Translations under genes and position numbers: made by a program | In this document: in pieces, positions 1 to 25,316 of the stretch | Numbering within the stretch: the first letter of the stretch is position 1 | Layout: the number at the start of each line of letters is the position of its first letter | Notes under the pieces: generated by a model | Seen by the model: the letters and a program-made list of their open reading frames with translations, nothing else | Told to the model about the DNA's origin: nothing | Databases searched by the model: none | Assembly: GCF_021533215.1 (NCBI RefSeq) | Contig: NZ_JAJNKA010000001.1 | Span: 434,001 to 498,000, forward strand | Reading direction: 5' to 3' | DNA from: Portibacter lacus | GTDB lineage: Bacteria > Bacteroidota > Bacteroidia > Chitinophagales > Saprospiraceae | Length of the DNA stretch: 64,000 nt

Positions 1-627
1 TATCATCACCGCTTGCGCAATGTCTGTAGGTAAGCCACGAATAGCTATTCTTTCGCCACTTTGCAGATTAGACTTAATTAATCCGCCATCTTTTTCAACG
101 ATGATGATTTCATTTTCATTGATAAAAGCCATGCTCCACGGTTTCTTTAATCCCTCTAGTATAACCTCTTTCACAGGGTGGGGCTTGGCTTCTTGTGGCG
201 TTTTTGGAATAGGAATGGCATCGGTACATTTGCTTACAATTTTCCAGTCGGTACCTATTTTCTTCAGCAACAATAGATCGTAGTATCGTCTTGAAAAAGA
301 AGGGATATCCACTTCTAGTTTCGCATAAGCAACATTTTCTACCACATCTAGCGAAATGAGTGTGCTGAATCGTTGATTTTGTTGTCCACGTCGTCCATTG
401 TTATAAAGCGAAGCATATTTTTCCACGGAGTAAACCATGAGGGTATCTGCATCATTATACAGAAACATATTTGTTCCAGGTAAAAACGCATTAAGTATCT
501 TTTCAGGATAGTTGTAAGTTGTACCTTCTATGAAGTCATTTATGGGCTGATACACGCCCTCATTTTTATCATCTTGAGCGATAGAATAGCATGGTATGAT
601 CAATAGCAAAACAAAAATTCTTAACAT
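1..627 (-). CDS. Secreted PQQ-dependent sugar dehydrogenase-like protein with N-terminal lumazine-binding-like domain (partial)
   Basis: Open reading frame of 209 codons with its ATG at 627-625, running off the left edge, so the C-terminus is missing. Residues 1-19 are a signal peptide ending SIAQ. Residues ~24-135 resemble the NTF2-fold putative lumazine-binding family seen in Bacteroidota (IEGTTYNYPEKILNAF, then ...DWKIVSKC). From ~145 the sequence changes to the opening blade of the glucose/sorbosone dehydrogenase propeller (LKKPWSMAFINENEIIIVEK, like the usual PWxMAFLPDG). The fusion would be an exported protein with a small alpha+beta domain before a PQQ-type six-bladed propeller. Catalytic residues lie outside the window, so enzyme activity is unproven. 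Confidence 0.7.
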   Translation of the reverse strand, partial: MLRIFVLLLIIPCYSIAQDDKNEGVYQPINDFIEGTTYNYPEKILNAFLPGTNMFLYNDADTLMVYSVEKYASLYNNGRRGQQNQRFSTLISLDVVENVAYAKLEVDIPSFSRRYYDLLLLKKIGTDWKIVSKCTDAIPIPKTPQEAKPHPVKEVILEGLKKPWSMAFINENEIIIVEKDGGLIKSNLQSGERIAIRGLPTDIAQAVMI

Positions 628-720
628 CTTTAATTTTTATTTCAATATTAGTTGAATTTCCAGAAACCTCGTTAGAATAAAGGTTTGAAGGAGTGCAGGA
701 TGATCATTTGGGAGTAAAAA

Positions 721-1758
721 CTAGGCCGTTTGCATGTTTTTCTTGAATTGTGCTGGAGTTAGGCCAGAGATTTTTTTGAATGCTGAGAAGAAAGAAGATT
801 TAGAATTAAAGCCTGCTTCATACCCGATTCCTTCTAATGAAAGGTCCGACCTCAGGTGAATCAATTTCATGGCTTCGTTAACACGCATTTCGTTTACAAA
901 ATTGGAAAACCCATGGAGATATTCTTCATTCAGAAGCCGTGAAACCATATTCCTGTTTAATTCTACCGCGTCAGCTAAGTCATTTAATTTCAATTTTGGA
1001 TTCAGATACAACTTCTCCTCTTCCATTTTAGATTTGATCTTAAGTAACAATTGATCTGCATGATCAATAGGCTCAGCTGCTGCTTTCGTTTTTATGCCTA
1101 TTTCGCCTTTGTTCAGTACAACATTGACCATCATATAATAAAAGAAAATAGTGAAGGCAATGGCTCCCCAGATGTAGGTGAACCCATGAATAAATAAAGC
1201 GCACTGGAAGGTAATGGTGATAAAAAGCACTGCAATCGTAACGACGAATAGTGGAGATTTAATAAGATTCCGAATGCCTTCCGATTTGTATTGCTTCATT
1301 AATACACTGAAACCTTGCAAGGCACCTAACACCACAAAGACACTCCACACGCCATAGATGTAATAAATGTAATATCCATTCCAGATTTCTGGGTGATCTC
1401 GATAAGGAAAGATGAATCCACCGATAATAATAATGCTGCTCAATATGCTGATGAGAACGATGTCTTTTTTCCTGAAAGTAGTCGCCTTATTGACGAACGA
1501 TTTTACATAAAAGTAGAACATGGGGCCGATAAAAATACAGGCCGTTAATCCGATCTGTAGAATGAGGCGATCCACGGAATGATCAAAGTAATAAAATACG
1601 GACTTCCCAATTCTAAAACTCAAAGCCACCAACAAAGCACCTAAGTAGAATTGTTGCGGTAAGTTTCTTCTTTTGACCATCAAGAAAAGACCCACTAAAA
1701 GTCCATTAACGACTCCGATACTTGCGAAAAGGAAAAGAAGTGAAATCCAAATATTCAT
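721..1758 (-). CDS. Membrane-bound AraC-family transcriptional regulator (7TM + HTH)
   Basis: A 345-residue protein. Residues 1-220 form about seven hydrophobic segments, beginning MNIWISLLFLFASIGVVNG, and residues ~245-342 form an AraC/XylS double helix-turn-helix ending with the signature region GYEAGFNSKSSFFSAFKK and GLTPAQFKK. This architecture is common in Bacteroidota, where the membrane half is thought to sense a ligand or membrane state and the C-terminal domain binds DNA in the cytoplasm. It is transcribed toward the PQQ gene, with about 90 bp between them. No effector can be named. The target could be the divergent or neighbouring secreted-protein genes, but no operator was recognised. 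Confidence 0.85.
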   Translation of the reverse strand: MNIWISLLFLFASIGVVNGLLVGLFLMVKRRNLPQQFYLGALLVALSFRIGKSVFYYFDHSVDRLILQIGLTACIFIGPMFYFYVKSFVNKATTFRKKDIVLISILSSIIIIGGFIFPYRDHPEIWNGYYIYYIYGVWSVFVVLGALQGFSVLMKQYKSEGIRNLIKSPLFVVTIAVLFITITFQCALFIHGFTYIWGAIAFTIFFYYMMVNVVLNKGEIGIKTKAAAEPIDHADQLLLKIKSKMEEEKLYLNPKLKLNDLADAVELNRNMVSRLLNEEYLHGFSNFVNEMRVNEAMKLIHLRSDLSLEGIGYEAGFNSKSSFFSAFKKISGLTPAQFKKNMQTA

Positions 1759-1805
1759 TTGATCAAAAATTCGAAATAAAGTTAAGGTATTTTTTTGTGT
1801 TTAAT

Positions 1806-2327
1806 TTAAGCTTTTACTTTTGCAGCCATCAACTTATTCCAGTTTTTATGTCTCATTTTGTACGAATAAACTAAAAAGTAAGATAGAAATGATGTTAATA
1901 CACCGGCATATAATATTACAGAATCTGTATAGGAAATTTCCTTTTCGTTTATTTTCTTAAAGGTCAATGTATGGTCCCATACTTTGCAAATGTTATTTTT
2001 TTCTTCGGTTTTGATCTCGGTTTTCAGCATATCAATATGAAGCACTTTTATATGATGAACTCCCCAGATATTAAATAAGCCGAAAGGTTTTATGATTAAT
2101 TCATAATTGAAACCTTCTTCCCAGAGAGGAGAGTCTATATTTTCCTTGACAAATGTAATCTTAGCAAGTGGTTTAACAATCTTTAAGGTATTAGCTTTGA
2201 TTAATTCTTGGGTGAAAAAATTGTCCAAATCAACATTGAAGTTACTCGTTATGGAAACAACTTTAGCTGACACTTCCACATTCTTGTATGTTACCACTGT
2301 ATTTTCTATACTCGAAAACTGTTTCAT
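1806..2327 (-). CDS. SRPBCC-like small protein
   Basis: A 173-residue protein without a signal peptide. It has a loose SRPBCC/START-like pattern: an N-terminal strand-rich half, then WDHTLTFKKINEKEISYTDS followed by a long hydrophobic helix (VILYAGVLTSFLSYFLVYSY) and a basic end RHKNW. Such an ending is seen in ligand-binding SRPBCC (polyketide-cyclase-like) proteins. The start lies only 2 bp after the stop of the gene at 2330-2731, so the two are co-transcribed and may act together or be diverged paralogues. No catalytic residues are recognisable, and the family assignment is an inference from pattern and neighbour. Confidence 0.5.
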   Translation of the reverse strand: MKQFSSIENTVVTYKNVEVSAKVVSITSNFNVDLDNFFTQELIKANTLKIVKPLAKITFVKENIDSPLWEEGFNYELIIKPFGLFNIWGVHHIKVLHIDMLKTEIKTEEKNNICKVWDHTLTFKKINEKEISYTDSVILYAGVLTSFLSYFLVYSYKMRHKNWNKLMAAKVKA

Positions 2328-2329
2328 TC

Positions 2330-2731
2330 CTACAAAGCTCCGATATTTTCAAATAATAAGGTGTGTTGTTCTCTGAATACTTTCTGCATCATGGTTTTGA
2401 TGGGCAATATTGAGTTGAAAGATAAGGCTTCATTAACAACGGTCATGTTGTTTTCAGCGGTCAATGTAAAGGACATTTCAACTTTAGTAAGTTTCATAAC
2501 GACGGCACGCATAATGACAGTTTGATTCGTTACCTCTTTTTCTACGCTTACTGGATACTTAAAAGAAAAAGGGATGAACCCGAATTTTAAAGTTTCGTAG
2601 ACCAAGTATTTATTCCCTTCTAGGTGATCTATTTTACGGATTACAGGATGCACCTCCACAAATTTCTGCATATTTGTTAAGTAGTCAAAAACGATCTCAA
2701 GCGGTTTATCTACCTTAAAGAATAAGTTCAT
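2330..2731 (-). CDS. SRPBCC family protein
   Basis: A 133-residue cytosolic protein with the classic SRPBCC opening: a short strand, then PLEIVFDYLTNMQKFVEVHP, which is the helix-loop that begins polyketide-cyclase/START-like folds, followed by HLEGNKYLVYETLKFGFIPF and a C-terminal long helix. The length is normal for a single-domain SRPBCC protein, a fold with a deep hydrophobic ligand cavity. It is first in a two-gene unit with the gene at 1806-2327 (2 bp gap). No ligand can be predicted. Confidence 0.7.
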   Translation of the reverse strand: MNLFFKVDKPLEIVFDYLTNMQKFVEVHPVIRKIDHLEGNKYLVYETLKFGFIPFSFKYPVSVEKEVTNQTVIMRAVVMKLTKVEMSFTLTAENNMTVVNEALSFNSILPIKTMMQKVFREQHTLLFENIGAL

Positions 2732-2780
2732 ATTTTGGTTTTAGGTCAATTTTTAAATACTAGTATCTTCATAAAAGTAC

Positions 2781-4415
2781 TTATTGCTTGACAACTTTAT
2801 AAATTACGTCCTGTTTCGTCACAGCATTATAAGCTTTTATAAAGTAAGAACCACTTGGAAATTGGGATATATCAATCTGATTACTTGTTAATTTTTGTTG
2901 CAGTATTTGTCTTCCCTTGAAATCAATAATCTTTACCGAATAATTATTGAAATCTGAAAGGTCTAAATGGATAAGACCATTTGTTGGATTGGGATAAATA
3001 TTGATCTCATCACCTAATTCGATGATTTCTTTTAATGCGCTTGTAGTCGTGAATTCATAACACCCGATATCTACATGTTCTCCTTGAGGTCTGGGAATAT
3101 TATTTAAATCAAACATGGGCGCAACAGCGTCTTCTCCGCTATCGATTAAGCTGCTACTTGCTAATAAGTGGAAATCAATATGATCTACATCTACAAAATG
3201 ATCACTGTATTCGGTAATGCTATTAAGGACAACATTACTTCCTAATTCGCCGTCTACCGTGAATTTGTTAGCTACATTATTCTTTACGATACACCCAGAA
3301 CTAGGTCTTTCATCTTTATGATCGGCGATCATAATCCACGAGCCACCTGGTGCCAGTTCAGGACTTGGGTCTAGGATGGTATTGTTAATAATCATGCAAT
3401 CTTTCGCGCCTAATAAAGTGATTCCATGCCAGTGGTTAACGATGATTAAGTTGTTCTCGATGATCCAGTTATTATACATCCCATCGAAACATCCGATACC
3501 TTGCAATGGCCCGGATAAAGGTTGATCAGGATTCTCCTGATTGATGATGGTATTTCCTCGTACGATATTGTGATCTACCACATATCCATTCGTTGTGAAA
3601 GATTGAATACCATCATCATGATTATCATCAACATTGTAACAATTCTTGATTAGATTCCCTTGGAAAAGGCCATACGATCCAAGTATTCTTAACCCGTCGC
3701 CTGAAAAATTGACAATAGAATTGTTAACGACATTAATATGATCTCCAACAGCAGAAATTCCCATGTCAACATTCCGCACTTCATTATTGATCACATTAAT
3801 AGAATCGCCCTTCGCATATATTCCATTACTTACTTTAGTGAGCCAATCATCTGCTACTTCCCAAGGGGCATCTGCACTGACCACTTCACAATTGTAAATT
3901 TCTATATCTTTCGCTGGTCCATGAAAGTTGTGGGATTCAAAAAATACGAGGTTCGAATTGATGAAGTTTCCATAGGGCTCGGAGCTAACTTTTAGATTTT
4001 CGAACTTCCATTTGGAACCTGATTGAATATGCAGTTGCTCAAGGACAGGTTGCTCATTTTCACCTCCCATAACTGTTATATAGTCCAAGTTGCTGTAATT
4101 TCTAATGAATATATTTCCGTGGAGTCCGGATTTTAGGAGGAGTGTATCTCCAGCTTTTACTGGAGCGCCGTTGTTTTTCACGCTTAGAGAACTCGTCAGC
4201 GCGTCATAGGGGAGGGAAGTGTATTCGTAAGATTCGATGAGCTGATGATCAATGACTTCCGCTAGTGTAGACCATGGCGAATCAGGAGAGCCATCATTGT
4301 CCATGCTTCCGATGCTTGGATCAATGTAAAAAATGGCACTATTGCAGATTGTAGGAACAAGGCAAAAGTATATAATGCAGCTTGTGAGCATTATAATATG
4401 GAATGGGTTCTTCAT
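2781..4415 (-). CDS. Secreted right-handed beta-helix protein with T9SS sorting domain
   Basis: A 544-residue protein with an N-terminal hydrophobic export signal (residues 1-27). From ~90 to 440 it has short repeating Asn-rich turns typical of parallel beta-helices (NVVNNSIVNF, GLFQGNLIKNC, NWIIENNLIIVNHWHGI, DCMIINNTILD). The last ~75 residues form a type A T9SS sorting domain: INIYPNPTNGLIHLDL, then VKIIDFKGRQIL and GSYFIKAYN. It is therefore expected to be exported and anchored on or released from the cell surface. The fold is shared by many polysaccharide lyases and surface proteins. No catalytic site was recognised, so an enzyme role is possible but not shown. It is divergent from the esterase at 4606. 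Confidence 0.8.
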   Translation of the reverse strand: MKNPFHIIMLTSCIIYFCLVPTICNSAIFYIDPSIGSMDNDGSPDSPWSTLAEVIDHQLIESYEYTSLPYDALTSSLSVKNNGAPVKAGDTLLLKSGLHGNIFIRNYSNLDYITVMGGENEQPVLEQLHIQSGSKWKFENLKVSSEPYGNFINSNLVFFESHNFHGPAKDIEIYNCEVVSADAPWEVADDWLTKVSNGIYAKGDSINVINNEVRNVDMGISAVGDHINVVNNSIVNFSGDGLRILGSYGLFQGNLIKNCYNVDDNHDDGIQSFTTNGYVVDHNIVRGNTIINQENPDQPLSGPLQGIGCFDGMYNNWIIENNLIIVNHWHGITLLGAKDCMIINNTILDPSPELAPGGSWIMIADHKDERPSSGCIVKNNVANKFTVDGELGSNVVLNSITEYSDHFVDVDHIDFHLLASSSLIDSGEDAVAPMFDLNNIPRPQGEHVDIGCYEFTTTSALKEIIELGDEINIYPNPTNGLIHLDLSDFNNYSVKIIDFKGRQILQQKLTSNQIDISQFPSGSYFIKAYNAVTKQDVIYKVVKQ

Positions 4416-4605
4416 GTGGTATCTTCTTTTAACACTACCAAAGCTAAAGAATTGAGAATAGATTCTTCCTGCTTAAATTAGATTTAATAAATTTTCGTCG
4501 CAGTGCGTATTTTTATTAATTTAGAATCAAATTAGAAAAATCCTCTCGTTCTTCAGGTTTAGGACGATTGGTCAATTTTTCGAAATTTGTAAATACCCCA
4601 AAACT

Positions 4606-6147
4606 ATGCCCCTAAAGTTAGCTTTCATAATTCTGTCTGCCATTCTTCTGTCTTCTGTTATCTGTAATCGTATTAATGCTCAGATTCCTGGCAGATACCA
4701 TCAAGAAGTATTTGCTAATGTCACAGAAACCAATAATATTCAATTTAGCACAGCGGTTCCTCAGCCAATAAATGAATGGGATATACAATCACTTTTATCT
4801 GGAGGTCTTCCATTAAATGTTAAAGAGTACGATACGGAAAATGTTAATTTGAAAATGGATATTTTCGAACCGAGTGGTGATGTTTCTGAAAAAAGACCAT
4901 TGATAATTATCTGTTTTGGTGGAGGTTTCTTGAGTGGGAGTAGAGATTACTGGAGCATGAGATTGCTGGCTCAGGGCTTTGCTAGAATGGGTTATGTGAC
5001 TGCTAGTATCGATTATCGACTAGGAATGAATATTTATGATAAAGATCTAGGGGCAAGGTCAGTGTATCGAGCTGTTCAAGATAGTAGGTCTGCTGTTCGA
5101 TATTTCAAAGCGCATGCTGCGGAGTATAATATTGACATAGAGAATATTTTTATAGGAGGACATAGTGCTGGAGCATTTGTAGCACTCCACAATGTATACT
5201 TAGATAAAGATTCAGAAAGACCATTCCCTACTAGAGGAGGAACGCAGGATGGAAATGCCTACCCAGATCTGGGTTGCTTGGACTGTGTAGGAGATAACTT
5301 ATCATTTAGTGGAAGAGCAAAAGGAGTATTCAGTCTGGCTGGTGCTGTAGGTGCATTGTCTTATATAGAACATGCTCAAGAATCTCCTCCGATTATGTTT
5401 CATAGCTCTGATGATGGAACAGTCCCATATGGAACTGGGAAGCCATTTTCAGACTTAGCCTCCATAATTATTGGAGAAGATTTTCCGGTTGTGCATGGTA
5501 GTTCTATTATTGCTAAGCGTTGCGATACCCTAGGGCTGGAATATGAATTTAATGCCTACACGAATCGCGGACATAGCGTTCATGAAAATGGAAGCGTGGC
5601 ATTGCATTCGGATATCATCCCGAAAATAAGCAATTGGCTGTATACTAAATATTTAAAACCCGAAGACGTTTCTTTAGAAGGTTATGCCGATATCTGCCCC
5701 GATGATTTATTCCAATCTTATTCACTCAGTAATTCCGCCATTAAATATTTTGATTGGCAGATAACAGATGGTACAATTGTAAATGGAAGTACGACTGATG
5801 CGAGCATTACTGTAGAGTGGAATCCAGAAGGCAGCAATCATAAAGTAGAACTAGTTCCCTACACCGAAAATGGAAGTGAAGGAGATAAGCAAACTTTTTC
5901 CGTAGCGATTCATGATGGATCTATGAATCAGTGGATCGGAAATGGTGGAGAGTGGGGCGATGCAAATAATTGGTCTAATGGATATATCCCTTTGCCATGT
6001 GAGCATGTAGTCTTTGAAGAAAAGAATACCGTAACGGAAATAAATCTACCGCCCAATGTTAGTGTATCATTGCTTTCTCTGATGCTAGGAAACAATATCA
6101 TTTTAAATATTCCAGAAGGCACATCTTTGAAAGTCAGCAACCAATAG
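4606..6147 (+). CDS. Secreted alpha/beta hydrolase (carboxylesterase-like)
   Basis: A 513-residue protein. Residues 1-25 are a signal peptide ending INAQ. Residues ~80-350 form an alpha/beta-hydrolase core: an oxyanion-hole loop FGGGFLSG at 104-111, the nucleophile elbow GGHSAGAF with Ser187, an acid loop HSSDDGTVPYG, and the histidine in NRGHSVHE. Residues ~355-430 resemble a PKD-like beta-sandwich. The end has a W.G..GEWGDANNWSNG segment like those preceding sorting domains in Bacteroidota proteins, but no T9SS tail follows before the stop. It lies upstream of the GH16 gene on the same strand (88 bp gap) and may de-esterify the same polysaccharide. That link is inferred. Confidence 0.82.
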   Translation: MPLKLAFIILSAILLSSVICNRINAQIPGRYHQEVFANVTETNNIQFSTAVPQPINEWDIQSLLSGGLPLNVKEYDTENVNLKMDIFEPSGDVSEKRPLIIICFGGGFLSGSRDYWSMRLLAQGFARMGYVTASIDYRLGMNIYDKDLGARSVYRAVQDSRSAVRYFKAHAAEYNIDIENIFIGGHSAGAFVALHNVYLDKDSERPFPTRGGTQDGNAYPDLGCLDCVGDNLSFSGRAKGVFSLAGAVGALSYIEHAQESPPIMFHSSDDGTVPYGTGKPFSDLASIIIGEDFPVVHGSSIIAKRCDTLGLEYEFNAYTNRGHSVHENGSVALHSDIIPKISNWLYTKYLKPEDVSLEGYADICPDDLFQSYSLSNSAIKYFDWQITDGTIVNGSTTDASITVEWNPEGSNHKVELVPYTENGSEGDKQTFSVAIHDGSMNQWIGNGGEWGDANNWSNGYIPLPCEHVVFEEKNTVTEINLPPNVSVSLLSLMLGNNIILNIPEGTSLKVSNQ

Positions 6148-6235
6148 CCCATTATTGAATTAATGTTAATTATATTTATCGCTTGGTTTATCTAAATTAA
6201 GGCATTAACTAGATAAAACCTCAAATGGGTGAACT

Positions 6236-7225
6236 ATGATAAAAACAGCATTGCCATTTATATTACTTCTAATTTGTACACTAACATTTGCACAAAAGCC
6301 CTACAAGGGTGCTGAAGTCTTTTCGAAGGACAAGGTTTTGTATGGCAAATTTGAAATGAACATGAAAATGATAAAAGGGAGTGGCATGTTGTCCACCTTT
6401 TATACGATCGAACAAGGTGACAATGATTACTGGGCGGAGCTTGATATTGAAGTACTTGGTAAAGATAATGCCCAAGTCATGTCCACTAATATATTCACAG
6501 ACAACGAAAGTGGAGGCCTAGATCAAAGTGTAGAGGAAATTCACGTGGATTATTCATTAGCCGATACGTTTCACACTTTTACTTTAGAATGGACTCCAGA
6601 TTATATTGCATGGTTCATCGATGGGGTAGAACATAGGAGAGAAACGGGAGATGTGGTTAATCATATGACGGTACCTCAAGGGTATCGATTCAACTCATGG
6701 GTATCTTGTTCTCCAGGTTGGGTAGGAGATATCGATAGAGATGCAATGCCAAGTTATCAATACGTCGAATGGCTAGAATATTCTAGTTATGATACGGCTA
6801 CACAGGAATTTACCTTAGAATGGCGTGACGATTTTGATAATTTTAATTCTTCACGATGGGCGAAAGCGGAATGGACATTTTATTGTAACGAAGTTGATTT
6901 TGCGAAAGAAAACGCTTTTATTGAAGATGGTAGATTGGTTCTGGCAATCACTGATCCCAGTGCCCCTTCAAGTATTTTGGAAGAACCGATCCAGGATTAT
7001 TTTACTACAAGGTATAATGCAGCAAGTGATGAAATCTTAGTTAATAGCTTAGAAAACGGTAAGTATAAAATTCAACTTTTTGATACAAGTGGTAAGCTTG
7101 TGATCGCAAAGCAAACTGATCAGTCCTACTTTTCTATTTCTTGTTCTAATATCCAAAGCGGTTTATACATCATCAGCATCAATCATAATGGCAAATGGTT
7201 TAGCCAGAAGATATTTGTTAATTGA
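6236..7225 (+). CDS. Circularly permuted GH16 beta-glucanase (Fibrobacter lichenase type), secreted
   Basis: A 329-residue protein with a signal peptide (1-20, ...LTFAQ). Residues 22-185 hold the GH16 catalytic half, with the signature WAELDIEVLG: E68 as nucleophile, D70 as helper and E72 as acid/base. Residues 191-240 (FTLEWRDDFDNFNSSRWAKA ... NAFIEDGRLVLAITD) are the strand block that normally comes before the catalytic half. The order is thus swapped, as in the naturally permuted Fibrobacter succinogenes 1,3-1,4-beta-glucanase, to which both blocks look closely similar. Residues ~262-329 resemble a T9SS-type tail (KIQLFDTSGKL, SGLYIISINHNG), although the usual YPNP start is missing. Expected substrate: mixed-linkage or related beta-glucan. 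Confidence 0.88.
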   Translation: MIKTALPFILLLICTLTFAQKPYKGAEVFSKDKVLYGKFEMNMKMIKGSGMLSTFYTIEQGDNDYWAELDIEVLGKDNAQVMSTNIFTDNESGGLDQSVEEIHVDYSLADTFHTFTLEWTPDYIAWFIDGVEHRRETGDVVNHMTVPQGYRFNSWVSCSPGWVGDIDRDAMPSYQYVEWLEYSSYDTATQEFTLEWRDDFDNFNSSRWAKAEWTFYCNEVDFAKENAFIEDGRLVLAITDPSAPSSILEEPIQDYFTTRYNAASDEILVNSLENGKYKIQLFDTSGKLVIAKQTDQSYFSISCSNIQSGLYIISINHNGKWFSQKIFVN

Positions 7226-7258
7226 TCTAAGCCAGAAAAGGAAATATCCAATAAAAAA

Positions 7259-7286
7259 AGTGGGCAAAATTTAAATTTTACCCACT
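7259..7286. terminator. Bidirectional intrinsic terminator between gh16 and murQ
   Basis: A 28-base near-perfect palindrome: AGTGGG, an AT core, then CCCACT, with one mismatched pair. A run of A precedes it and an AT-rich stretch follows. It sits 33 bp after the stop of the plus-strand glucanase and 37 bp after the stop of minus-strand murQ, as expected for a shared terminator. Confidence 0.75.
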
Positions 7287-7323
7287 AATATTTATTTCTT
7301 AAAAGTTAATTATAATCTAAGAA

Positions 7324-8127
7324 CTAAGAATGCTTTTCAGCTGCAGCTCTTACGCTACCATGTTCCATCAGTGCTTTATTAGCTGCCTCGTATCCTAGAC
7401 CTGTTAGTTTCATCACCATTTTAGTGCCTCGGTCTATTAATTTAGAATTGGACAATTGCATATCCACCATCTTATTATCGACTACTCTTCCAAGTTTAAT
7501 CATGACAGATGTACTGATCATGTTTAAGGCCAATTTCTGAGCAGTACCCGACTTCATTCGCGTACTTCCAGTTACAAATTCTGGTCCTACTTGAATAACT
7601 ATTGGAAAGTCAGCATGATTGATGATCGGTGCACCTGGATTACACACGATACAACCTGTTGCAATACCTCTTTCTTGACATGCACGTAATCCACCAATAA
7701 CATATGGTGTTGTTCCAGAAGCTGCGATTCCTACTACGGTATCTAATTCTGTGATTTGGAATTCATCAAGATCTCGGATGGCTTGTTCAAGATCATCTTC
7801 TGCATCTTCTACTGATTTTCTAATCGCGGTATCTCCACCAGCTATAATTCCAACTACCCAGTCAAAAGGCACTCCAAATGTAGGTGGGCATTCTGACGCA
7901 TCAAGAACACCTAGCCTTCCTGATGTTCCAGCACCGATATAAAATAGTCGACCGCCTTCAGCCATTTTAGGAACGATGCTGTCAACAAGTTTTCCTATTG
8001 CTGGAATTTGTTTTTCAACAGCTAGTGCAACTTTTTGATCCTCTTTGTTCATGTTCGTAAGAATCTCAGAAGTTGTCATTTTATCCAGATGCCTATATAT
8101 AGAGTCTGTTTCTGTAATTTTATTCAT
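7324..8127 (-). CDS. murQ: N-acetylmuramic acid 6-phosphate etherase
   Basis: A 267-residue SIS-domain lyase that cleaves the lactyl ether of MurNAc-6-phosphate, giving GlcNAc-6-phosphate and lactate in peptidoglycan recycling. Diagnostic stretches are GAGTSGRLGVLDASECPPTF (sugar-phosphate loop and conserved Glu), IAGGDTAIRKSVEDAEDD, AASGTTPYVIGGL and TGSTRMKSGTAQK. It lies in the cytoplasm. Its start overlaps the end of the upstream symporter gene by 8 bp, which implies translational coupling and suggests that the transporter supplies MurNAc or a related amino sugar. The length is slightly short for the family (~270-300). Confidence 0.95.
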   Translation of the reverse strand: MNKITETDSIYRHLDKMTTSEILTNMNKEDQKVALAVEKQIPAIGKLVDSIVPKMAEGGRLFYIGAGTSGRLGVLDASECPPTFGVPFDWVVGIIAGGDTAIRKSVEDAEDDLEQAIRDLDEFQITELDTVVGIAASGTTPYVIGGLRACQERGIATGCIVCNPGAPIINHADFPIVIQVGPEFVTGSTRMKSGTAQKLALNMISTSVMIKLGRVVDNKMVDMQLSNSKLIDRGTKMVMKLTGLGYEAANKALMEHGSVRAAAEKHS

Positions 8128-9601
8128 TTTTCTTTGATATGATTAATAATCCTATTATGGTAAATAAGGCATTCAGCCCTAAAATTGTGTTTCCAAATTT
8201 AAACCCGCCGAATAAATCAGCAGAATAGTAGTCAATGATGAATGTTAGGAGTGGGGCTATTAAACATACAGGTATGGTCCATTGATCCATAATCTTTCGT
8301 TTAGATACAATTCCAAATGTGAAAAGCCCTAGGATAGGTCCGTAGGTATACCCTGCAGCTTTGAAAAGTTTATTGATTATGGCGTCATCGTTTAACGCAT
8401 TGACAATTAAAATAATAAAGAAGATCAGGAGGCTGAAACCAACATGAACCATCATTCTTGTTCTTTTTTGCTGCTTTTCCGAATGCCCTCGTTGATCATA
8501 TTTTAGAATGTCAATGTAGAACGAAGTGGTTAGAGAAGTAAGCGCTGAATCGGCACTTGAGTAGGCAGCTGCAATTAAACCCAGCACAAATAGAATTCCT
8601 ATATAGGGTGATAAGTGATTCAAGGCAATCAGTGGATATAACTGATCTGTTCTCGATGGAATTTCGATTCCTTGATTTGCAGCAAACATATATAATAACG
8701 CTCCTAACGCTAGAAATAATAAATTGGCAAATATTAAAACAATACTAAAGCTCAATACATTTTTCTGAGCGGAAGGTAGATCTTTGCAAGTCAGGTTTTT
8801 CTGCATCATATCTTGATCCAATCCAGTCATCGCAGTTGCTATTAAAGCACCAGAAAGGAATTGCTTGAAAAAGTTGTTCGGGTCATTCCAGCCATCTTCG
8901 AAAAAGAACATTTGGCTATAGGCACTTTCTTTAACCATAGAAAAGGTATCAATAATTCCAGTAGATCCTAGGGCATTTCCGATTGCATAAATGGTCAGAA
9001 ATACAGCAGCCAACATACATACCGTCTGAAGGGTATCCGTTATCACGATTGTTTTGATTCCACCTTGAAAGGTGTAAACCCAGATTAATACAATGGCTAT
9101 CATGACGGTAAGAAAGAAAGGTATACCGAAACTGTCCATGACGATTTTTTGGAAAACAATAGCAACTAAGAAAAGTCTAAGTGAAGCACCAACTACACGC
9201 GAAAGCAGGAAGTATAGTGATCCTACGAAATAAGAGAACTTGCCAAACCGATCATTCAGATATGTATAAATCGTTGTAAGTCCCATCCGATAATAGATCG
9301 GCATCAGCACTAAAGCGATGATGGCATAGCCCACCATATACCCATACACCATCTGCATGTAGGAAAAAGCGGTATTAGTACCGCCAGCACCAACTGCACC
9401 GGGAATAGAGATGAAGGTTACTCCTGATAGCGATGCACCGATCATCCCGAAGGCGACCAGAAACCAAGGAGATTTCTTATCTGCATTAAAGAATGTCTGA
9501 TTGTCAGCACCTCTACTTGTGAAATAAGAGATGCCTAAGAGCAACCCAAAGTAGAGGAATATAATGATGATAATTGTTGTAGGACTGATGATTTGTTCCA
9601 A
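8120..9601 (-). CDS. Sodium:solute symporter (SSS family)
   Basis: A 493-residue inner-membrane protein with about 13 hydrophobic helices. It has SSS hallmarks: GASLSGVTFISIPG near residue 55, the FQGGIKTIVITDTLQ loop, and AAAYSSADSALTSLTTSFYID at ~345-365, which matches the conserved sodium-site region. It would import a small solute with Na+. Overlap with murQ points to N-acetylmuramic acid or another amino sugar (inference). The chosen start is a TTG at 9601-9599; no ATG precedes the first helix. Confidence 0.88.
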   Translation of the reverse strand: MEQIISPTTIIIIIFLYFGLLLGISYFTSRGADNQTFFNADKKSPWFLVAFGMIGASLSGVTFISIPGAVGAGGTNTAFSYMQMVYGYMVGYAIIALVLMPIYYRMGLTTIYTYLNDRFGKFSYFVGSLYFLLSRVVGASLRLFLVAIVFQKIVMDSFGIPFFLTVMIAIVLIWVYTFQGGIKTIVITDTLQTVCMLAAVFLTIYAIGNALGSTGIIDTFSMVKESAYSQMFFFEDGWNDPNNFFKQFLSGALIATAMTGLDQDMMQKNLTCKDLPSAQKNVLSFSIVLIFANLLFLALGALLYMFAANQGIEIPSRTDQLYPLIALNHLSPYIGILFVLGLIAAAYSSADSALTSLTTSFYIDILKYDQRGHSEKQQKRTRMMVHVGFSLLIFFIILIVNALNDDAIINKLFKAAGYTYGPILGLFTFGIVSKRKIMDQWTIPVCLIAPLLTFIIDYYSADLFGGFKFGNTILGLNALFTIIGLLIISKKNE

Positions 9602-9685
9602 TGGTGTTTAATTTTGCGATGAAAGTAAGAAGAAAATTTTTAATCAGACATTGACTTCAAATCTTTTCCTATTTTCGAGCCGATT

Positions 9686-10528
9686 ATGAAAGAGAAAGGA
9701 TTTCTTGTAGTTATTCTTGCTGCATGCATAGCAGGGTTCGGTGGAATATTCATCAATAATATATCGATGGGTTCTACTGCTATTGCTTGGATGAGAACAA
9801 CGGTGCCTACGGTTTTGCTTGGAAGTATTTTACTTTTTCAAGGAGTGAAACTTTTTCAAGGCAATTTTAAAATGCTTTTGAACCTTTCATTTTGGAGCAC
9901 TTTGAGAATTTTCTTATTTATAATGGCGTATACTTTTACGAGTATCGGGAATGCCGTTGTCGTATTTTATACCTATCCGATATTTACCTTGCTTTTCGCC
10001 TATAAAATGCTGGATGAACACATATCGAAACGGCAAATAGGGCTAATTCTGTTAGCATTTGTTGGACTAGTTGTGATTTATGCCAATAAAACTTTTTCTT
10101 TTGCGGACCAAGATTTTCTTGGAATGCTTTCAGCGTTAGCGGCTGCGATCATTTTCGCCTATATCGTAATCTTGATGAAGAAGATGAGTGATGGTTATGG
10201 AAGAGTGGAGATTTTATTTTATCAGAATTTTATCGGAGTCATTCTATTCTTGCCCTTCTTCATGATGGATCTACCGAATGTAAGTCTGCCGAATCTTGGT
10301 TTTGGAGTAGCTTACGGTATTGTGATCGGAGTGGTGGTCTATTATTTATTCTTGTATGGATTAAAGAGAATGAAAGCATCTATTGCATCTGCTCTAATGT
10401 ATGTGGAGATTCCATCTACCATCTTTTTCGGCTGGTTAATTCTAGATGAAACGTTATCGATCAATTTCTTAATTGGAGCAGTTATGATCGTCATATCCAG
10501 TGTATTGCTTAAGACTGGGAAGGCATAA
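9686..10528 (+). CDS. EamA/DMT-family permease
   Basis: A 280-residue integral membrane protein with ten predicted helices in two EamA repeats (about 5-135 and 145-275). The half-repeat motif FYTYPIFTLLFAYKMLDE is echoed by MYVEIPSTIFFGWLILDE in the second half, the typical end-of-repeat pattern for drug/metabolite transporters. It probably exports a metabolite or amino acid; the substrate is unknown. It stands alone, divergent from the symporter-murQ pair, and ends at a bidirectional terminator. Confidence 0.88.
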   Translation: MKEKGFLVVILAACIAGFGGIFINNISMGSTAIAWMRTTVPTVLLGSILLFQGVKLFQGNFKMLLNLSFWSTLRIFLFIMAYTFTSIGNAVVVFYTYPIFTLLFAYKMLDEHISKRQIGLILLAFVGLVVIYANKTFSFADQDFLGMLSALAAAIIFAYIVILMKKMSDGYGRVEILFYQNFIGVILFLPFFMMDLPNVSLPNLGFGVAYGIVIGVVVYYLFLYGLKRMKASIASALMYVEIPSTIFFGWLILDETLSINFLIGAVMIVISSVLLKTGKA

Positions 10529-10530
10529 AA

Positions 10531-10554
10531 AAAGCAAGTCCGAAGACTTGCTTT
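10531..10554. terminator. Bidirectional intrinsic terminator
   Basis: A perfect 10-bp stem, AAAGCAAGTC and GACTTGCTTT, around a CGAA tetraloop, preceded by seven A and followed by a T-rich stretch. It lies between the converging stops of the permease (10528) and the M56 gene (10563) and can serve both. Confidence 0.85.
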
Positions 10555-10562
10555 CTAATAAT

Positions 10563-12161
10563 CTATTTAAAATCTTTCTTTTTATTGTAAAGTTTCTGTA
10601 GCAACTGTTTATTCCACTTGACTTCTTTTTCTGTCAATTTATGAGCGCCACTTTTATGATTAGCAAGCTCACTTTCCACATGCTTAATCAGTTTGTTCAA
10701 CTCATCTAATGTCTCTGGAGCTCTAGGTGGCGGTGGCGGAGGTGGCAATTCGCTTGGTGCATTTACTGCCGTCGGGGCACTTGGTGGCGGTGGTGGCGCT
10801 TTTGCAGTTTCCGGAGCTTTTGGCGGCGGTGGCGGTGGCGGCAAAGTTGATTTTTCTGCTTTTGTAGCCGCTTTAGGAGCCATAGGAGCCATCGGCGGTG
10901 GTGGAGGAGGTGGAATACTTTCTCCGGTATACCAAGTACTCATATTATTTCCGTCATCTAACTTAATGCCTCTATACTTTTTACCATTGGCATGTGCTTC
11001 CGTTTTTATTTTTAACAAACCCTGTGGAGCCTTCAGTTTTCTCATGAATAACTCTTTCTTCTCCTCGGTGTATATTATTTCAGGAAGAGATTTTCCTTCT
11101 AACATTTTGCCGTTCACCCTGAAAGAAAGTTGATCCATATCCATTAAGGAAATCTTCTTTAGTAAAGTGTGCATATTGGCTGGCGATATGGGTTGATCCA
11201 TATTATTGTAATAAAATTGAACATTTGAGTTCGTTTTGCCATCTACTTCCACAATAAGATTAGAAGTACTTTTAGCTGTAATGGTGGATTTTGAATCCTT
11301 ATTTACCTGTGCATAGGTTTTCTCACATGCTATAAATGAGAGTAATGCAAACAAAGGCAAAACCATTAATTTTTTCGCCCATAAGAGTGGACCGCTCCTT
11401 GATTTCTGTAACATCATCATACGTTTTTTAATAATTGAATAATCGAAACCACTGGCCAGTGTGTTTGCTTTATTTTTATAAATCTGGTTAAAGATTAGTA
11501 GTTTATATTTTTTCAGATCTCTATTTTTCGAATAAGCATCAGCATAATATTCATGATTCTGTGTGATTAATCTTTTGTGCCAATAGAATAAGGGATTAAA
11601 CCAAAATACAATCAATAAGAGTTCTGAGATCAAGACATCAATGCTATGATATGCATCTGCATGTCGTTTTTCATGTTCTAGGATTTCTGGGGCTGCATAC
11701 TTGGGAAGGAAAATGTAATGAAAGAAACTAAATGGAATACTGTTTTTGCCTTCTGTAACAATTTTATAGCTATTGATTTTTTCAAACTTTGCTTTCTTGC
11801 AACGATTGATCAAATTATACAGGTTTTTATTAAACTTGATAAACATACCGATGAAGCCAAGACTGTACAAAACGAATAAGGCGATAGACCAATTTATCTT
11901 TAGAGAACTGATATTAGTTCCTAGGTTTTTTTCTGTAAATACGTCATTGTAGCCATAAGCTAATGTTTGTTCTGGAAGAATGAATTCTGCCCATTCTATA
12001 GATACGGCATAAGTAATGAATGGGCTTATCAGACTAATTGCTAAGGCGCTTAATAAATAAACACGATTAAAAACAAATGCTTTTTCCTTTTCAAGAAACA
12101 CCTTGTAAAAAAGGATGAGTACAAATAGTACTGCGCTGGATTTTAATAGATATAGCATCAT
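10563..12161 (-). CDS. BlaR1-type M56 family metallopeptidase with proline-rich extension
   Basis: A 532-residue protein with four N-terminal membrane helices. The cytoplasm-facing zinc-peptidase site is HEKRH at 163-167, with a third-ligand region HEYYAD at 203-208. A further membrane helix at ~262-285 is followed by an extracytoplasmic tail. Residues ~415-480 are very proline-rich (PPPPPPPMAPMAPK, PPPPPPPKAPE and similar), and the end is charged. Such proteins cleave the BlaI repressor encoded just upstream (4-bp overlap), relieving repression. The beta-lactam-sensing penicillin-binding domain of staphylococcal BlaR1 is not present, so the signal is unknown. Confidence 0.88.
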   Translation of the reverse strand: MMLYLLKSSAVLFVLILFYKVFLEKEKAFVFNRVYLLSALAISLISPFITYAVSIEWAEFILPEQTLAYGYNDVFTEKNLGTNISSLKINWSIALFVLYSLGFIGMFIKFNKNLYNLINRCKKAKFEKINSYKIVTEGKNSIPFSFFHYIFLPKYAAPEILEHEKRHADAYHSIDVLISELLLIVFWFNPLFYWHKRLITQNHEYYADAYSKNRDLKKYKLLIFNQIYKNKANTLASGFDYSIIKKRMMMLQKSRSGPLLWAKKLMVLPLFALLSFIACEKTYAQVNKDSKSTITAKSTSNLIVEVDGKTNSNVQFYYNNMDQPISPANMHTLLKKISLMDMDQLSFRVNGKMLEGKSLPEIIYTEEKKELFMRKLKAPQGLLKIKTEAHANGKKYRGIKLDDGNNMSTWYTGESIPPPPPPPMAPMAPKAATKAEKSTLPPPPPPPKAPETAKAPPPPPSAPTAVNAPSELPPPPPPPRAPETLDELNKLIKHVESELANHKSGAHKLTEKEVKWNKQLLQKLYNKKKDFK

Positions 12162-12526
12162 TGCTTTTTCTTTTTAATTTCTTCATTGATCAATTTTTGA
12201 ATCTCTTCTAATTCAGAGATGCTTAAATCGGTCTCTTTGGTGAAGAAGGAAGCAAACTGCGTTGAAGAATTGTTAAAGAAGGTATTTTTGAATTCTTTAA
12301 ATTTCTTTCCGAAATAGTTCTTTTTAGCAACGGTAGGAATATACTTTCTTGCGTTGCCTATTGTTTCATACTTAATCATTTCCTTATCTGTCATGCGCTT
12401 GAGCAAAGTAGAAACTGTGGTCTTAGCTGGCTTAGGTTCAGGGAGTACATCTAATATATCTTTCATGAAAGCTCCATTTTGCTTCCATAATATCTTCATA
12501 ATTTTCTCTTCTGCTTTAGATAACAT
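12158..12526 (-). CDS. BlaI/MecI-type penicillinase repressor family regulator
   Basis: A 122-residue winged-helix repressor: LSKAEEKIMKILWKQNGAFM, then KTTVSTLLKRMTDKEMIKYE, the recognition helix and wing of the BlaI family, with a C-terminal dimerisation part ending in a lysine tail. It is expected to bind TACA..TGTA operators as a dimer and to repress its own operon. Its stop overlaps the start of the M56 peptidase by 4 bp, forming the usual repressor-protease pair. Two matching operators lie directly upstream. Confidence 0.93.
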   Translation of the reverse strand: MLSKAEEKIMKILWKQNGAFMKDILDVLPEPKPAKTTVSTLLKRMTDKEMIKYETIGNARKYIPTVAKKNYFGKKFKEFKNTFFNNSSTQFASFFTKETDLSISELEEIQKLINEEIKKKKQ

Positions 12527-12529
12527 ATT

Positions 12530-12584
12530 CTATGTTTGTAGATCGTGTACTACAAATGTAGAACAAGTATTTCGATTTTGCAAA
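12530..12584 (-). promoter_or_regulatory. blaI-blaR1 promoter with two BlaI-type operators
   Basis: Reading the minus strand, a -33 TTTG (12584-12581) is followed by a 20-bp spacer and a -7 TACATTTG (12560-12553), a full match to the Bacteroidota consensus TTTG-N19-21-TAnnTTTG. The -7 box lies inside a perfect dyad CTACAAATGTAG (12550-12561), and a second dyad-like box CTATGTTTGTAG occupies 12530-12541. The centres are 20 bp apart, about two helical turns. This arrangement fits autorepression by BlaI dimers covering the promoter and start site. Confidence 0.75.
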
Positions 12585-12610
12585 TTTTATTTTTTTTTAA
12601 GTTAAACTTC

Positions 12611-12639
12611 TGATGTTATCACTTAGAGTGATGACGTCA
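12611..12639. repeat. Hairpin-forming inverted repeat
   Basis: A 13-bp stem, TGATGTTATCACT with AGTGATGACGTCA, closed by a TAG loop; the two mismatches are G-U compatible if the plus strand is transcribed. It is the first of several hairpins in the 640-bp gene-free region after the blaI promoter. No T-run follows, so it does not look like a terminator. Confidence 0.55.
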
Positions 12640-12669
12640 TTGCTTCAATAAAATACTTACGCTGGAAAA

Positions 12670-12700
12670 GATCTGACATCGCTGTGAGCGCTGTCAGATC
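12670..12700. repeat. Hairpin-forming inverted repeat
   Basis: The arms GATCTGACATCGCT and AGCGCTGTCAGATC form a 14-bp stem with one mismatch and a 3-base loop. It lies in the same gene-free region as the repeats that follow. No uridine run follows on either strand. Confidence 0.6.
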
Positions 12701-12722
12701 GATATTTCTAATATCATGTTGA

Positions 12723-13030
12723 TAAAGCTAAAGAGTAGTATTTATCGGCTAAGCCTCGAAAAACATTCATAGCCTCACTAAATGTGAGACCATGAGTTTT
12801 TCGCTTGAAAAGAATGAATTCATAGCCTGAACTTCCGTCAGCCTATGAATATCCTGGTTATAAAGCTAAAGAGTAGTATTTATTGGTTAAGCCTCGAAAA
12901 ACATTCATAGCCTCCGCTAGTAATCGGACAAGTCCTAAATGTGAGACCATGAGTTTTTCGCTTGAAAAGAATGAATTCATAGCCTCCGCTAGTAATGGGG
13001 AAAGTCCTAGATGTGTGATCATGAGTTTTT
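12723..13030. repeat. Direct repeat block with internal hairpins
   Basis: A unit beginning TAAAGCTAAAGAGTAG occurs at 12723 and again at 12861 (period 138 bp). Both copies run through AAGCCTCGAAAAACATTC and end near GAATGAATTCATAGCC. A shorter ~55-base sub-unit from TTCATAGCCTCCGC to GAGTTTTT is at 12904-12958 and 12976-13030, and in a shortened form at 12767-12801. In the short form CGAAAAAC..CATAGCCTCAC pairs with GTGAGACCATGAGTTTTTCG across a five-base loop. No open reading frame of note overlaps it. It could be a dispersed repetitive element or a structured RNA. The flanks 12585-12610 and 13031-13166 show nothing clear. Confidence 0.7.
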
Positions 13031-13166
13031 TTACTATTCCATAAATCCAAATAATACAGCCTTCTCTACGAATAATCGACCAGCCTCCCCGAACAGTAGT
13101 CTAGTAAAATATTGACCTAAAAACCCTTCATATTTGAATCATCAATCATCTTAAAAAATAATAGTT

Positions 13167-13889
13167 ATGAAAAATTTAATAGGAATTTTAGCGCTTTTAC
13201 TAATGAATACTCTTGTATTCGGAAACACGGATAACAATGTAAAGCCAGAACTTAAAGTTATGGCGAAATCTGGATTGAAACTGAGATTAAGCCCGAATCT
13301 AGACTCTCCAGTTCTGGATGTTATTCAATACGGAGAATCAGTTACACAGACAGACGATTTTGTACCGAGTTTGGAGAAATTCAACGTGAACTGGGTGAAG
13401 GGATCATGGATAAAAGTGAATTATAATAATCAAGTGGGTTTTATTTTCGATGGGTTTGTGAGTGAATTATCTGTTCCATCAGAAGCGCTTGAATTTGCTT
13501 CTACCATAAACGAAATCAGTCAGGCAGTCTACAATTATAGTTTTCACAAATATCCATGGATTGCGACAGATACACTTACAGATAATGAAATGGCACTTAC
13601 GACACTAAGTATATTAGGGGAAACAGAGCTTTTCGTTCACGATTCTGAATACATGTCTAAAGTGGAAGCTACGATCCCTAATGTTCGAATTATGGATGTC
13701 TACCACCTAGTAGAAAGTATGATGGATACCCGAGCTGCCAGATCTGCTCTTAAAGAAAGTACGATGTTTTTCTCAGATGCTTCAGGTGAAGTGAATAAAA
13801 TAAAAATATCAGGCGGTCAGATTACCATTAAGATTTTAGATAATGGAAGCGTAAAACTTTCATGTAAGACGATACATGAAGGTTGCTAA
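13167..13889 (+). CDS. Secreted SH3-domain protein
   Basis: A 240-residue protein with a signal peptide (1-19, ...NTLVFG). Residues ~29-100 look like a bacterial SH3 domain: MAKSGLKLRLSPNLDSPVLD, then SWIKVNYNNQVGFIFDGFVS. These domains often bind peptidoglycan or other envelope partners. Residues 105-240 match no family I recognise. The last part is strand-rich (KIKISGGQITIKILDNGSVK) and the final residues EGC include a cysteine. It stands alone, downstream of the repeat block, and ends before a clear terminator. Confidence 0.65.
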   Translation: MKNLIGILALLLMNTLVFGNTDNNVKPELKVMAKSGLKLRLSPNLDSPVLDVIQYGESVTQTDDFVPSLEKFNVNWVKGSWIKVNYNNQVGFIFDGFVSELSVPSEALEFASTINEISQAVYNYSFHKYPWIATDTLTDNEMALTTLSILGETELFVHDSEYMSKVEATIPNVRIMDVYHLVESMMDTRAARSALKESTMFFSDASGEVNKIKISGGQITIKILDNGSVKLSCKTIHEGC

Positions 13890-13927
13890 GAAATAAACCA
13901 GATTTTTTGCTCTATGTAGATTTTTTT

Positions 13928-13965
13928 AAAAAAGTGTCTTCTAAAAGTAGGAGACATTTTTTTTT
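13928..13965 (+). terminator. Intrinsic terminator after the SH3 protein gene
   Basis: The stem TGTCTTCT / AGGAGACA has one G-U pair and a six-base loop, extended by A-rich and T-rich flanks, then a run of nine T. It starts about 40 bp after the stop of the SH3-domain gene. Confidence 0.75.
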
Positions 13966-14097
13966 GAACCAAACCGAAGTTTCCTTGTTTCACGTACATT
14001 AATTATGCAATTTGCTAAAGAAGTTATATTATTTGTTTGGTGGACGATAATTAGCGAAAGTTTGTTCTTTCTTTTTTAGAATATATTTCTTAACTTG

Positions 14098-14904
14098 ATG
14101 TCAAACTCTGATATGAAACACTTTTTCCTAACAATCCTAGTGGCTTTCTTCACTGTTTCTATGGTGGGGCAAGTGACCTTTCAGCCGAAGTCATATGATG
14201 GAGATGTCAAAGGCGTAGTGTACAGTACAGAGAAGACCGTCGACTTGCGCCTCTATCCTAATGGATGGGCAGTCGCCTATAATACTGGTAACATAGTCAG
14301 TTATAATAAGACTAAGTATTATCATTTCGAGTTAGGGAAACATGCAGATCCAAGAGAGAAATTACAAAGTAGACCTTATAATCTAAGCTTTGTCCGAGGT
14401 GCAGGTTCATTTGCTTATGGGAAAATTAATTCTTTCTATAGTGCAAGAGTAGGTATGGGACGATTGAAATATGTTTCAGAAAAAGCTAAAAGAAAAGGAA
14501 TTGCAGTTGGTTTTAATTATGAAGTAGGCCCAGCACTCGGTTTCTTAAAACCTTATTATCTAGAAGTATATGTAGATGATGGCGAATTAGCTGGTTTTAG
14601 TACAGAACCTATCAAATATTCAGAAGAAACTGCAGCTGTATTTTTAGATCAAGGGTCTATCGCAAACGAAGGTAGATTTGTGGAAGGACTTCTTGAAACA
14701 AAATTAATTCCTGGAATTCAAGGAAAAATTGGGGTACATTTTGATGCTGGTGCATTCGACGAATACGTTAAGGCGATTGAAGTTGGAGCGATGGCTGAAG
14801 TGTATTCTAGAAGAATTCCACTGATGGCTCCGACAGACAATCACTCAGATAAGCCGTTTTTTTTCAATCTTTATGTAAATTTGCATTTCGGTAAACGAAA
14901 TTAA
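14098..14904 (+). CDS. Outer-membrane beta-barrel-like protein upstream of lipA
   Basis: About 268 residues. A second ATG at 14113 would give the most compact signal peptide (MKHFFLTILVAFFTVSMVGQ). The body has alternating amphipathic strands rich in Tyr and Gly (YYHFELGKHADPREKLQS, GFNYEVGPALGF, GKIGVHFDAGAF) and ends in a strand with a terminal basic pair (FFFNLYVNLHFGKRN), a pattern consistent with a small outer-membrane barrel. The family name is unknown to me. The stop is 11 bp before the lipA start, so the two are probably co-transcribed, although no functional link to lipoate is evident. Confidence 0.65.
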   Translation: MSNSDMKHFFLTILVAFFTVSMVGQVTFQPKSYDGDVKGVVYSTEKTVDLRLYPNGWAVAYNTGNIVSYNKTKYYHFELGKHADPREKLQSRPYNLSFVRGAGSFAYGKINSFYSARVGMGRLKYVSEKAKRKGIAVGFNYEVGPALGFLKPYYLEVYVDDGELAGFSTEPIKYSEETAAVFLDQGSIANEGRFVEGLLETKLIPGIQGKIGVHFDAGAFDEYVKAIEVGAMAEVYSRRIPLMAPTDNHSDKPFFFNLYVNLHFGKRN

Positions 14905-14915
14905 AAGCAAATTAG

Positions 14916-15788: not shown

Positions 15789-15890
15789 AGAAAGATTTTT
15801 AAAATATAATGAGGGATCTTCAGTATTAAAAAATATGATCTTAAATCCTTTGTAATCAATAGATTAAGTATTATCTTAATACAAAAGAAA

Positions 15891-15926
15891 ACCCCGTTTT
15901 TTACGTTGGAAGCGGAAAAACGGGGT
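15891..15926. terminator. Terminator-like hairpin in front of the transposase remnant
   Basis: ACCCCGTTTTT and AAAAACGGGGT form an 11-bp perfect stem around a 14-base loop. It may end lipA transcription 103 bp downstream. It may instead belong to the insertion sequence, since IS elements often carry such a hairpin to block incoming transcription. Confidence 0.55.
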
Positions 15927-15945
15927 AATCTTAAAAACTATTAAG

Positions 15946-23715: not shown

Positions 23716-23725
23716 GAGATGTTTT

Positions 23726-23761: not shown

Positions 23762-23794
23762 ATTATCATAATTAAACTTAAAAATTTGCAGAGA

Positions 23795-25294: not shown

Positions 25295-25316
25295 TATATT
25301 TTTTTTAATTTTTTTA

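Follow-up and report, generated by a model that had tools for sequence, protein, structure and literature searches.

A probable secreted, naturally circularly permuted GH16 enzyme of Bacteroidota and the distribution of its domain order

Isolated cases usually serve to illustrate natural circular permutation, the Fibrobacter enzyme being a textbook instance; the F. succinogenes 1,3-1,4-β-D-glucanase was reportedly described by Tsai et al. in 2003 as a naturally circularly permuted jelly roll. A gene in the window, by which we mean the whole stretch of 64,000 nucleotides of Portibacter lacus DNA analyzed here, raises the question of whether the same rearrangement is present in Bacteroidota, whether the two halves of the GH16 domain changed places once or more often, and what the resulting enzyme acts on. 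A first-pass annotation had read the gene product as a glucanase in which the catalytic half precedes the strands that ordinarily open the fold, had likened it to the Fibrobacter enzyme but with a T9SS-like tail, and had regarded the topology as rare. Our analysis indicates that the protein is very probably a secreted, naturally circularly permuted GH16 endo-β-glucanase of Bacteroidota, the features of which are collected in Table 1.

Table 1. Features of the permuted GH16 gene and its immediate surroundings (positions in the window; residues refer to the GH16 protein)
Feature	Position	Strand	Basis or remark
α/β hydrolase with BD-FAE-like esterase domain; possible partner	4606..6147	+	Pfam; 88 bp upstream of the GH16 gene
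Probable permuted GH16 enzyme with T9SS tail; ORF, 329 aa	6236..7225	+	ORF list and profile matches
Putative signal peptide, residues 1–19	6236..6292	+	Read by eye
Catalytic half of the GH16 jelly roll, residues 20–185; second half in the canonical order	6293..6790	+	
Catalytic motif E68-L-D70-I-E72 (ExDxE), β-strand type without bulge	6437..6451	+	
Linker DTAT, residues 186–189, joining the ancestral C- and N-terminal strands	6791..6802	+	Split set on the alignment
Block 190–240, ancestral N-terminal strands, C-terminal here	6803..6955	+	
T9SS type A sorting domain, residues 263–329	7022..7222	+	PF18962, TIGR04183
Terminator-like inverted repeat between the GH16 gene and the convergent MurQ gene	7259..7286	-	Consensus scan

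The protein belongs to family GH16: it carries the ExDx(x)E motif, and residues 16–179 match positions 22–173 of the 175 in the Pfam profile PF00722 with 97.2 bits, above the curated cut-off of 22. The licheninase equivalog NF047856 (BglS, NCBIfam) is matched over model positions 78–236 of 237 with 105.7 bits, far below its cut-off of 300, partly because this model has the canonical order and a permuted protein cannot match the whole of it. The Pfam match likewise ends at residue 179, so that canonical-order family models see part of permuted enzymes.

Searches of PDB sequences with phmmer matched residues 20–241 in one collinear stretch to 1MVE, the natural permutant from F. succinogenes (E = 7.4e-54), which bears out the proposed likeness to that enzyme, and residues 29–240 in one stretch to 1CPM, an engineered permutant of the Bacillus lichenase (E = 2.5e-22). 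The canonical lichenase 3i4i was matched by residues 17–181 only (E = 2.9e-20). When the query was rotated, the 3i4i match rose from 75.9 to 89.7 bits and became full-length (7–215), canonical lichenases being matched over the N-terminal block too; the score against 1CPM fell from 82.7 to 73.2 bits, with a best stretch covering only 7–158 of the chain, and the match to 1MVE broke into two stretches. The same behavior was seen across 108 permuted domains, comprising the window protein, 74 loci from a genome scan and the members of two further groups, G2 (five) and G3 (28). All 108 scored higher in rotated than in native order against an HMM of 32 canonical sequences, by 10.2 to 36.2 bits (median 20), and median model coverage rose from 0.68 to 0.92; 28 of those 32 sequences were chosen using a rotated-order model, a mild bias, and their order was also read directly, the N-terminal block standing before the ExDx(x)E motif. 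Conversely, when the 32 canonical proteins were compared with a permuted-order HMM of 224 positions, the best stretch ended at position 170 or earlier.

An AlphaFold2 model calculated from an alignment of 46 sequences has a mean pLDDT of 92.3, with ten-residue means of 81–98 over the catalytic half and 95–98 over residues 190–239; its pTM of 0.73 we put down to the linker before the T9SS tail (pLDDT 62–67). Superposition of the predicted structure on GH16 structures with Foldseek matched the permutants over the whole domain (1zm1_B with TMt 0.90 over 232 columns, 1CPM with 0.87 over 225) and the canonical lichenase chains among the 50 matches listed over part of it (TMt 0.57–0.64 over 126–179 columns). 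In the model, the second block is predicted to complete the same jelly roll. The collinear match to 1MVE, the rotation tests and the structural comparison thus agree on the reversed order of the halves that had been proposed from the sequence, the boundaries of the blocks moving slightly from 22–185 and 191–240 to about 20–185 and 190–240. The block 190–240 matches the C-terminal block of 1MVE and is predicted not to form a separate domain, and residues 1–19, which read as a signal peptide, leave no room for the normal N-terminal strand ahead of residue 22; N-termini resembling that of the window protein precede the same domain start in its relatives. It is barely credible that the protein instead combines a normal GH16 half with an unrelated or duplicated C-terminal module, for although the Pfam match stops at 179 and no family passes its cut-off over 190–240, the rotation tests, the collinear alignment with a permutant of known structure, the Foldseek pattern and the absence of a canonical N-terminal block upstream of residue 20 all speak for a true permutation. 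At 75 loci, the open frame upstream of the domain, up to 60 residues, was inspected by eye for a fossil canonical N-terminal block and none was seen.

In a naturally permuted enzyme of this kind the chain would start in the loop before the second half of the GH16 jelly roll and first form the catalytic half; the strands found at the N-terminus of ordinary GH16 enzymes would then close the same sandwich at the C-terminal end. The tail, matched by Pfam over residues 263–328, scores 37.7 bits against PF18962 (cut-off 27) and 38.4 bits against TIGR04183 (cut-off 23), so the T9SS-like tail noticed earlier is borne out by two profiles. The genome of the window also encodes SprA (2146.9 bits) and GldL, and the protein therefore combines a type A sorting domain with T9SS machinery in the same genome, as expected of T9SS cargo; the tail would take the enzyme across the outer membrane. 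A T9SS tail was matched in 13 of the 46 alignment rows, which is the number of Bacteroidota rows given with tails, the remaining rows having been cut at the domain end, so that this count is no test of tail exclusivity.

Comparison with known enzymes places the window protein closest to the F. succinogenes glucanase (1MVE, 1ZM1, 2R49, 3H0O, 3HR9, 3AXD/3AXE), with which it shares 41% identity over the domain, the order of the halves, the domain start and the catalytic triad. It differs in its T9SS tail, in place of which the F. succinogenes loci carry Ser-rich ones, in a shorter loop before the catalytic motif, and at the equivalents of Q70, F40 and Y42. The canonical GH16_21 lichenases (1GBG, 2AYH, 1MAC, 3I4I) have the GH16 fold, the ExDxE motif and the W54 equivalent in common with it, but their halves stand in the opposite order, and the catalytic half alone is matched unless the query is rotated. 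Permuted GH16 proteins of Cellvibrio, Teredinibacter, Microbulbifer, Sorangium and Pelagicoccus fall, like the window protein, into a group that we call G1 and have the same order and domain start. Four gammaproteobacterial members that were scanned (L042, L066, L073, L086) carry CBM2, CBM10, CBM6 or CBM5_12 modules, which would fit activity on cell-wall glucans, and the two myxobacterial proteins scanned (L056, L062) have no further Pfam domain.

The retaining mechanism of GH16 and the roles of its catalytic residues are established for the family. E68, D70 and E72 align with E56, D58 and E60 of the F. succinogenes (Fs) enzyme, in a numbering for which we take E56 as the anchor and which agrees with PDB titles in the placement of V18, F40, E85 and W203. 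All 108 permuted domains have the E/D/E triad, as do the six canonical lichenases compared. By homology, the enzyme would use a retaining double-displacement mechanism with E68 as the nucleophile and E72 as the acid/base, and its substrate would be a β-glucan, most likely mixed-linkage β-1,3-1,4-glucan or a close relative. This substrate assignment, in which we have somewhat better than even confidence, is the weakest step of the explanation, because residues aligned with the cleft are changed in the window subclade, which comprises the proteins of the window, Algibacter, Tamlana and two MAGs (98/99 within G1). The positions concerned are Fs Q70, F40 and Y42, which we take to be functional cleft residues; their equivalents in the window protein are S83, Y56 and I58. 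Q70 is replaced in 5/5 members of the subclade (S/S/S/S/G), is Q in 70/70 other G1 domains, 28/28 G3 domains and 6/6 canonical lichenases (104/104), and is L (four) or Y (one) in G2. F40 is Y in three of the five and F in the other 70 G1 domains, all 28 of G3, all five of G2 and the six canonical lichenases; Y42 is represented by I, I, I, Y and M and is thus altered in four of the five.

A feature of GH16_21 licheninases is a Phe platform at subsite -1, Phe-92 of 1GBG, according to PMC6827312, which gives as a further trait the strict cleavage of β-1,4 bonds adjoining a β-1,3 kink. Fs F40 corresponds to Phe-92 in our reading of the alignment, and the window protein has Y56 in its place; among the other residues named in that paper, Tyr-94 corresponds to I58 and is lost, and Trp-103 (W66) and Trp-192 (W162) are kept. 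The replacement of Q70 is a hint that substrate subsites differ. As judged from these alignments, the window subclade has probably undergone a change on the substrate side of its cleft and may have undergone one in the substrate itself. The term glucanase in the first-pass annotation rests on homology, and the differences of the subclade at positions aligned with the lichenase substrate cleft mean that licheninase specificity is not assured.

Could the subclade, with the same fold and the same permutation, have left licheninase activity for another glycan, possibly one containing amino sugars, and feed GlcNAc/MurNAc catabolism? We regard this as unlikely, although several observations lend themselves to it besides the replacement of Q70 in all five members and the changes at F40 and Y42. 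Genes for MurQ and for a sodium/solute symporter lie downstream of the window gene and convergent with it. Algibacter has two permuted GH16 genes in tandem, and upstream of them, all in the same direction, genes for a GH20 enzyme, an esterase, a BglX-type GH3 enzyme, a GluP/NagP-like MFS carrier and NagB; the Tamlana genes read like those of Algibacter, with 91% identity for NagB. A ROK kinase, for which the best model is N-acetylglucosamine kinase (58.4 bits of a cut-off of 380), is encoded beside the copy of the Sphingobacteriia MAG. Flanks of at most 3 kb (1.5 kb at 33 loci) were compared across the 108 loci; within them, the Algibacter and Tamlana copies were the only ones with NagB nearby, and the copy of the Sphingobacteriia MAG was the only one with the ROK kinase.

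Other observations tell against an amino-sugar substrate. The MurQ gene is convergent and lies behind a terminator-like repeat, which places it outside the operon of the GH16 gene; the consensus scan found two such repeats in positions 4400–7400 versus a mean of 1.6 in shuffles. The Algibacter GH3 enzyme is a BglX-type β-glucosidase (816.3 bits versus a cut-off of 666), which fits a β-glucan. The fifth locus (L153) has nothing of the amino-sugar kind, the scan there covering a penicillin-binding protein only. G2 also lacks Q70, so the change at this position is not specific to an amino-sugar neighborhood, and five loci are few and the control flanks short. The Algibacter and Tamlana neighborhood gives the amino-sugar hypothesis some color, the GH3 enzyme fitting β-glucan equally well, and we keep a β-glucan as the likelier substrate. 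In a relative of Fibrobacter (L077), a homolog of the esterase upstream of the window gene (33% over 274 aa) is encoded near the permuted GH16 gene.

The supposed rarity of the topology did not hold. A scan with the family alignment over one genome for each of 84,980 species returned 122 relatives, and the best 80 of these represent 75 distinct loci, so that at least 75 permuted loci occur in five phyla (Fibrobacterota 29, Pseudomonadota 26, Bacteroidota 13, Myxococcota 6, Verrucomicrobiota 1); since the scan patterns derive from this family and the best 80 were taken, these counts are lower bounds and not a census. At all 75 loci the query was matched from residue 1–5 to 221–225, in its permuted order; one locus with a stop codon inside the match (L040) was left out, which leaves 74. 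Within the class of the window, 9 of 395 genomes match nearly the whole query, four with G1 proteins (the window included) and five with G2 proteins. G2 (L010–L014) is a more distant type, with 29–32% identity and one member in the genus of the window; the one G2 protein scanned bears an AMPK1_CBM/CBM48-like module. G2 retains the catalytic triad, with N at the position of Fs W54 in 5/5 members and L or Y at that of Q70.

A draw of 395 genomes from the phylum contained 35 that match nearly the whole query, 33 of them in another class than that of the window. The 28 G3 loci (L116–L143) taken from these genomes, which at a guess belong to Ignavibacteria, all match the permuted model from position 1–4 to 225 of 226 and have frames of 591–672 aa, one scanned member having a malectin domain and a T9SS-type tail. 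Of 299 genomes drawn from the Algibacter family, none but those of Algibacter and Tamlana gave a match at E ≤ 1e-15; Aquimarina (L096), filed under Flavobacteriaceae, is missing from these hits, so that the draw shows no more than a sporadic occurrence of the gene. Tandem permuted copies were found at 13 of the 108 loci searched. Immediately upstream of the tailed copy, Algibacter (L036) and Tamlana (L037) have another permuted GH16 gene (2134-2889 and 2117-2875), which encodes a protein of 251 and 252 aa, respectively, without a T9SS tail. The genome of the window has five GH16 matches, of which the four others read as canonical in order. Three canonical-order GH16 domains (L016, L161, L162) have EIDIE or EIDVE near the C-terminal end of the frame and form a long branch of their own. 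Viral contigs gave 46 pattern matches with no relative among them, and phage records gave no match; 63 plasmid records match, none of them across 80% of the query at a single place, which means that plasmids showed no permuted copy.

Permuted GH16 is therefore spread more widely than the open-licence papers searched record, the Fibrobacter enzyme being already known. The title of the 2003 paper by Tsai et al. stands in the reference lists of PMC2395249, PMC2213659 and PMC4606783, and also in the table of Foldseek matches. Neither "permut" nor "Fibrobacter" occurs in the accessible main text of the paper on GH16 subfamilies (PMC6827312), the accessible part of PMC3079729 has no word on permutation, and we found no report of permuted GH16 outside Fibrobacter in the open-licence literature. 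The new elements are the breadth of permuted GH16, the question of how many swaps took place and the altered cleft residues of the window subclade. Permuted GH16 emerges as a lasting architecture in at least five phyla, with varied tails and, in some cases, binding modules. Dozens of natural permutants can now be compared with canonical enzymes of the same family, and it becomes possible to test whether there was one swap or more, whether the original order was ever restored and whether tandem copies provided the route.

Trees were built with 57 of the 108 permuted domains, with 22 canonical rows in the quick tree. Five long-branched or distant sequences (L016, L018, L022, L028 and L113) were left out of the first careful tree; L016 was restored in the later two, in which GH16 proteins from plasmids served as further outgroups. 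G1 forms one group in all four trees, with uneven support (SH-aLRT 99 in the quick tree; 76/100, 93/73 and 100/98 in the careful trees). In the three careful free trees, a grouping of all permuted rows has bootstrap frequencies of 1%, 0% and 56%, and canonical ExDxE enzymes fall among the permuted groups in each. Taken at face value, the separation of the permuted groups in the free trees would mean either that the same loop was cut independently in several lineages or that the order was swapped back. A single origin of all permuted GH16 is nevertheless not rejected when the groups are held together (p-AU 0.269, 0.352 and 0.497), and in one careful tree (G1 93/73) the β-bulge outgroup joins next to G1, so the deep branches are not to be trusted. 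We think it rather improbable that the GH16 halves were swapped more than once or that canonical lichenases descend from a permuted ancestor.

The position of the cut bears on the same question. In G1, G2 and G3 alike, the domain begins a few residues ahead of one and the same G-A/G-E motif, just after an apparent signal peptide; the distance from the Met to this motif is 18–39 residues (median 26) in the 70 of 74 G1 loci measured, G2 and G3 being judged by eye. This common start speaks for one permutation event. It is no proof, since the engineered permutant 1CPM, cut at Phe59 of 2AYH according to PMC8513176, shows that the loop may tolerate a cut, and by our reading of the alignment this man-made protein is cut in the same loop as the window protein.

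Within G1, the 10 Fibrobacterota rows group as a separate clade (99/99), and the 13 Bacteroidota rows are scattered, with four label changes over 42 rows; a tree with a single Bacteroidota clade within G1 has a log-likelihood 26.95 lower and is a borderline case (p-AU 0.0605). The patchy spread of the permuted architecture suggests transfer between lineages. A more specific scenario, in which the gene of the window was acquired directly from a Fibrobacterota lineage or the reverse, we consider distinctly improbable. A tree constrained to unite the window clade and Fibrobacterota does as well as the free one (p-AU 0.557, log-likelihood 2.05 higher), but the free tree keeps the two apart, with the Fibrobacterota rows in the clade of their own, and Bacteroidota supply all five of the rows closest to the window.

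Several further observations concern the surroundings of the gene in the window. Base composition was considered as a signal of recent transfer and set aside, as the GC content of the GH16 gene (0.375) falls inside the range of 0.325-0.408 found in positions 1-16000. A short ORF at 15946-16422 resembles, by eye, the N-terminal part of a transposase and may belong to a decayed insertion element. Positions 17222-28313, some 10 kb away from the GH16 gene, look like a polysaccharide utilization locus, judged from N-termini: two large proteins are encoded at 17222-23715, followed by frames that read as SusD-like (23795-25294) and SusC-like (25317-28313).
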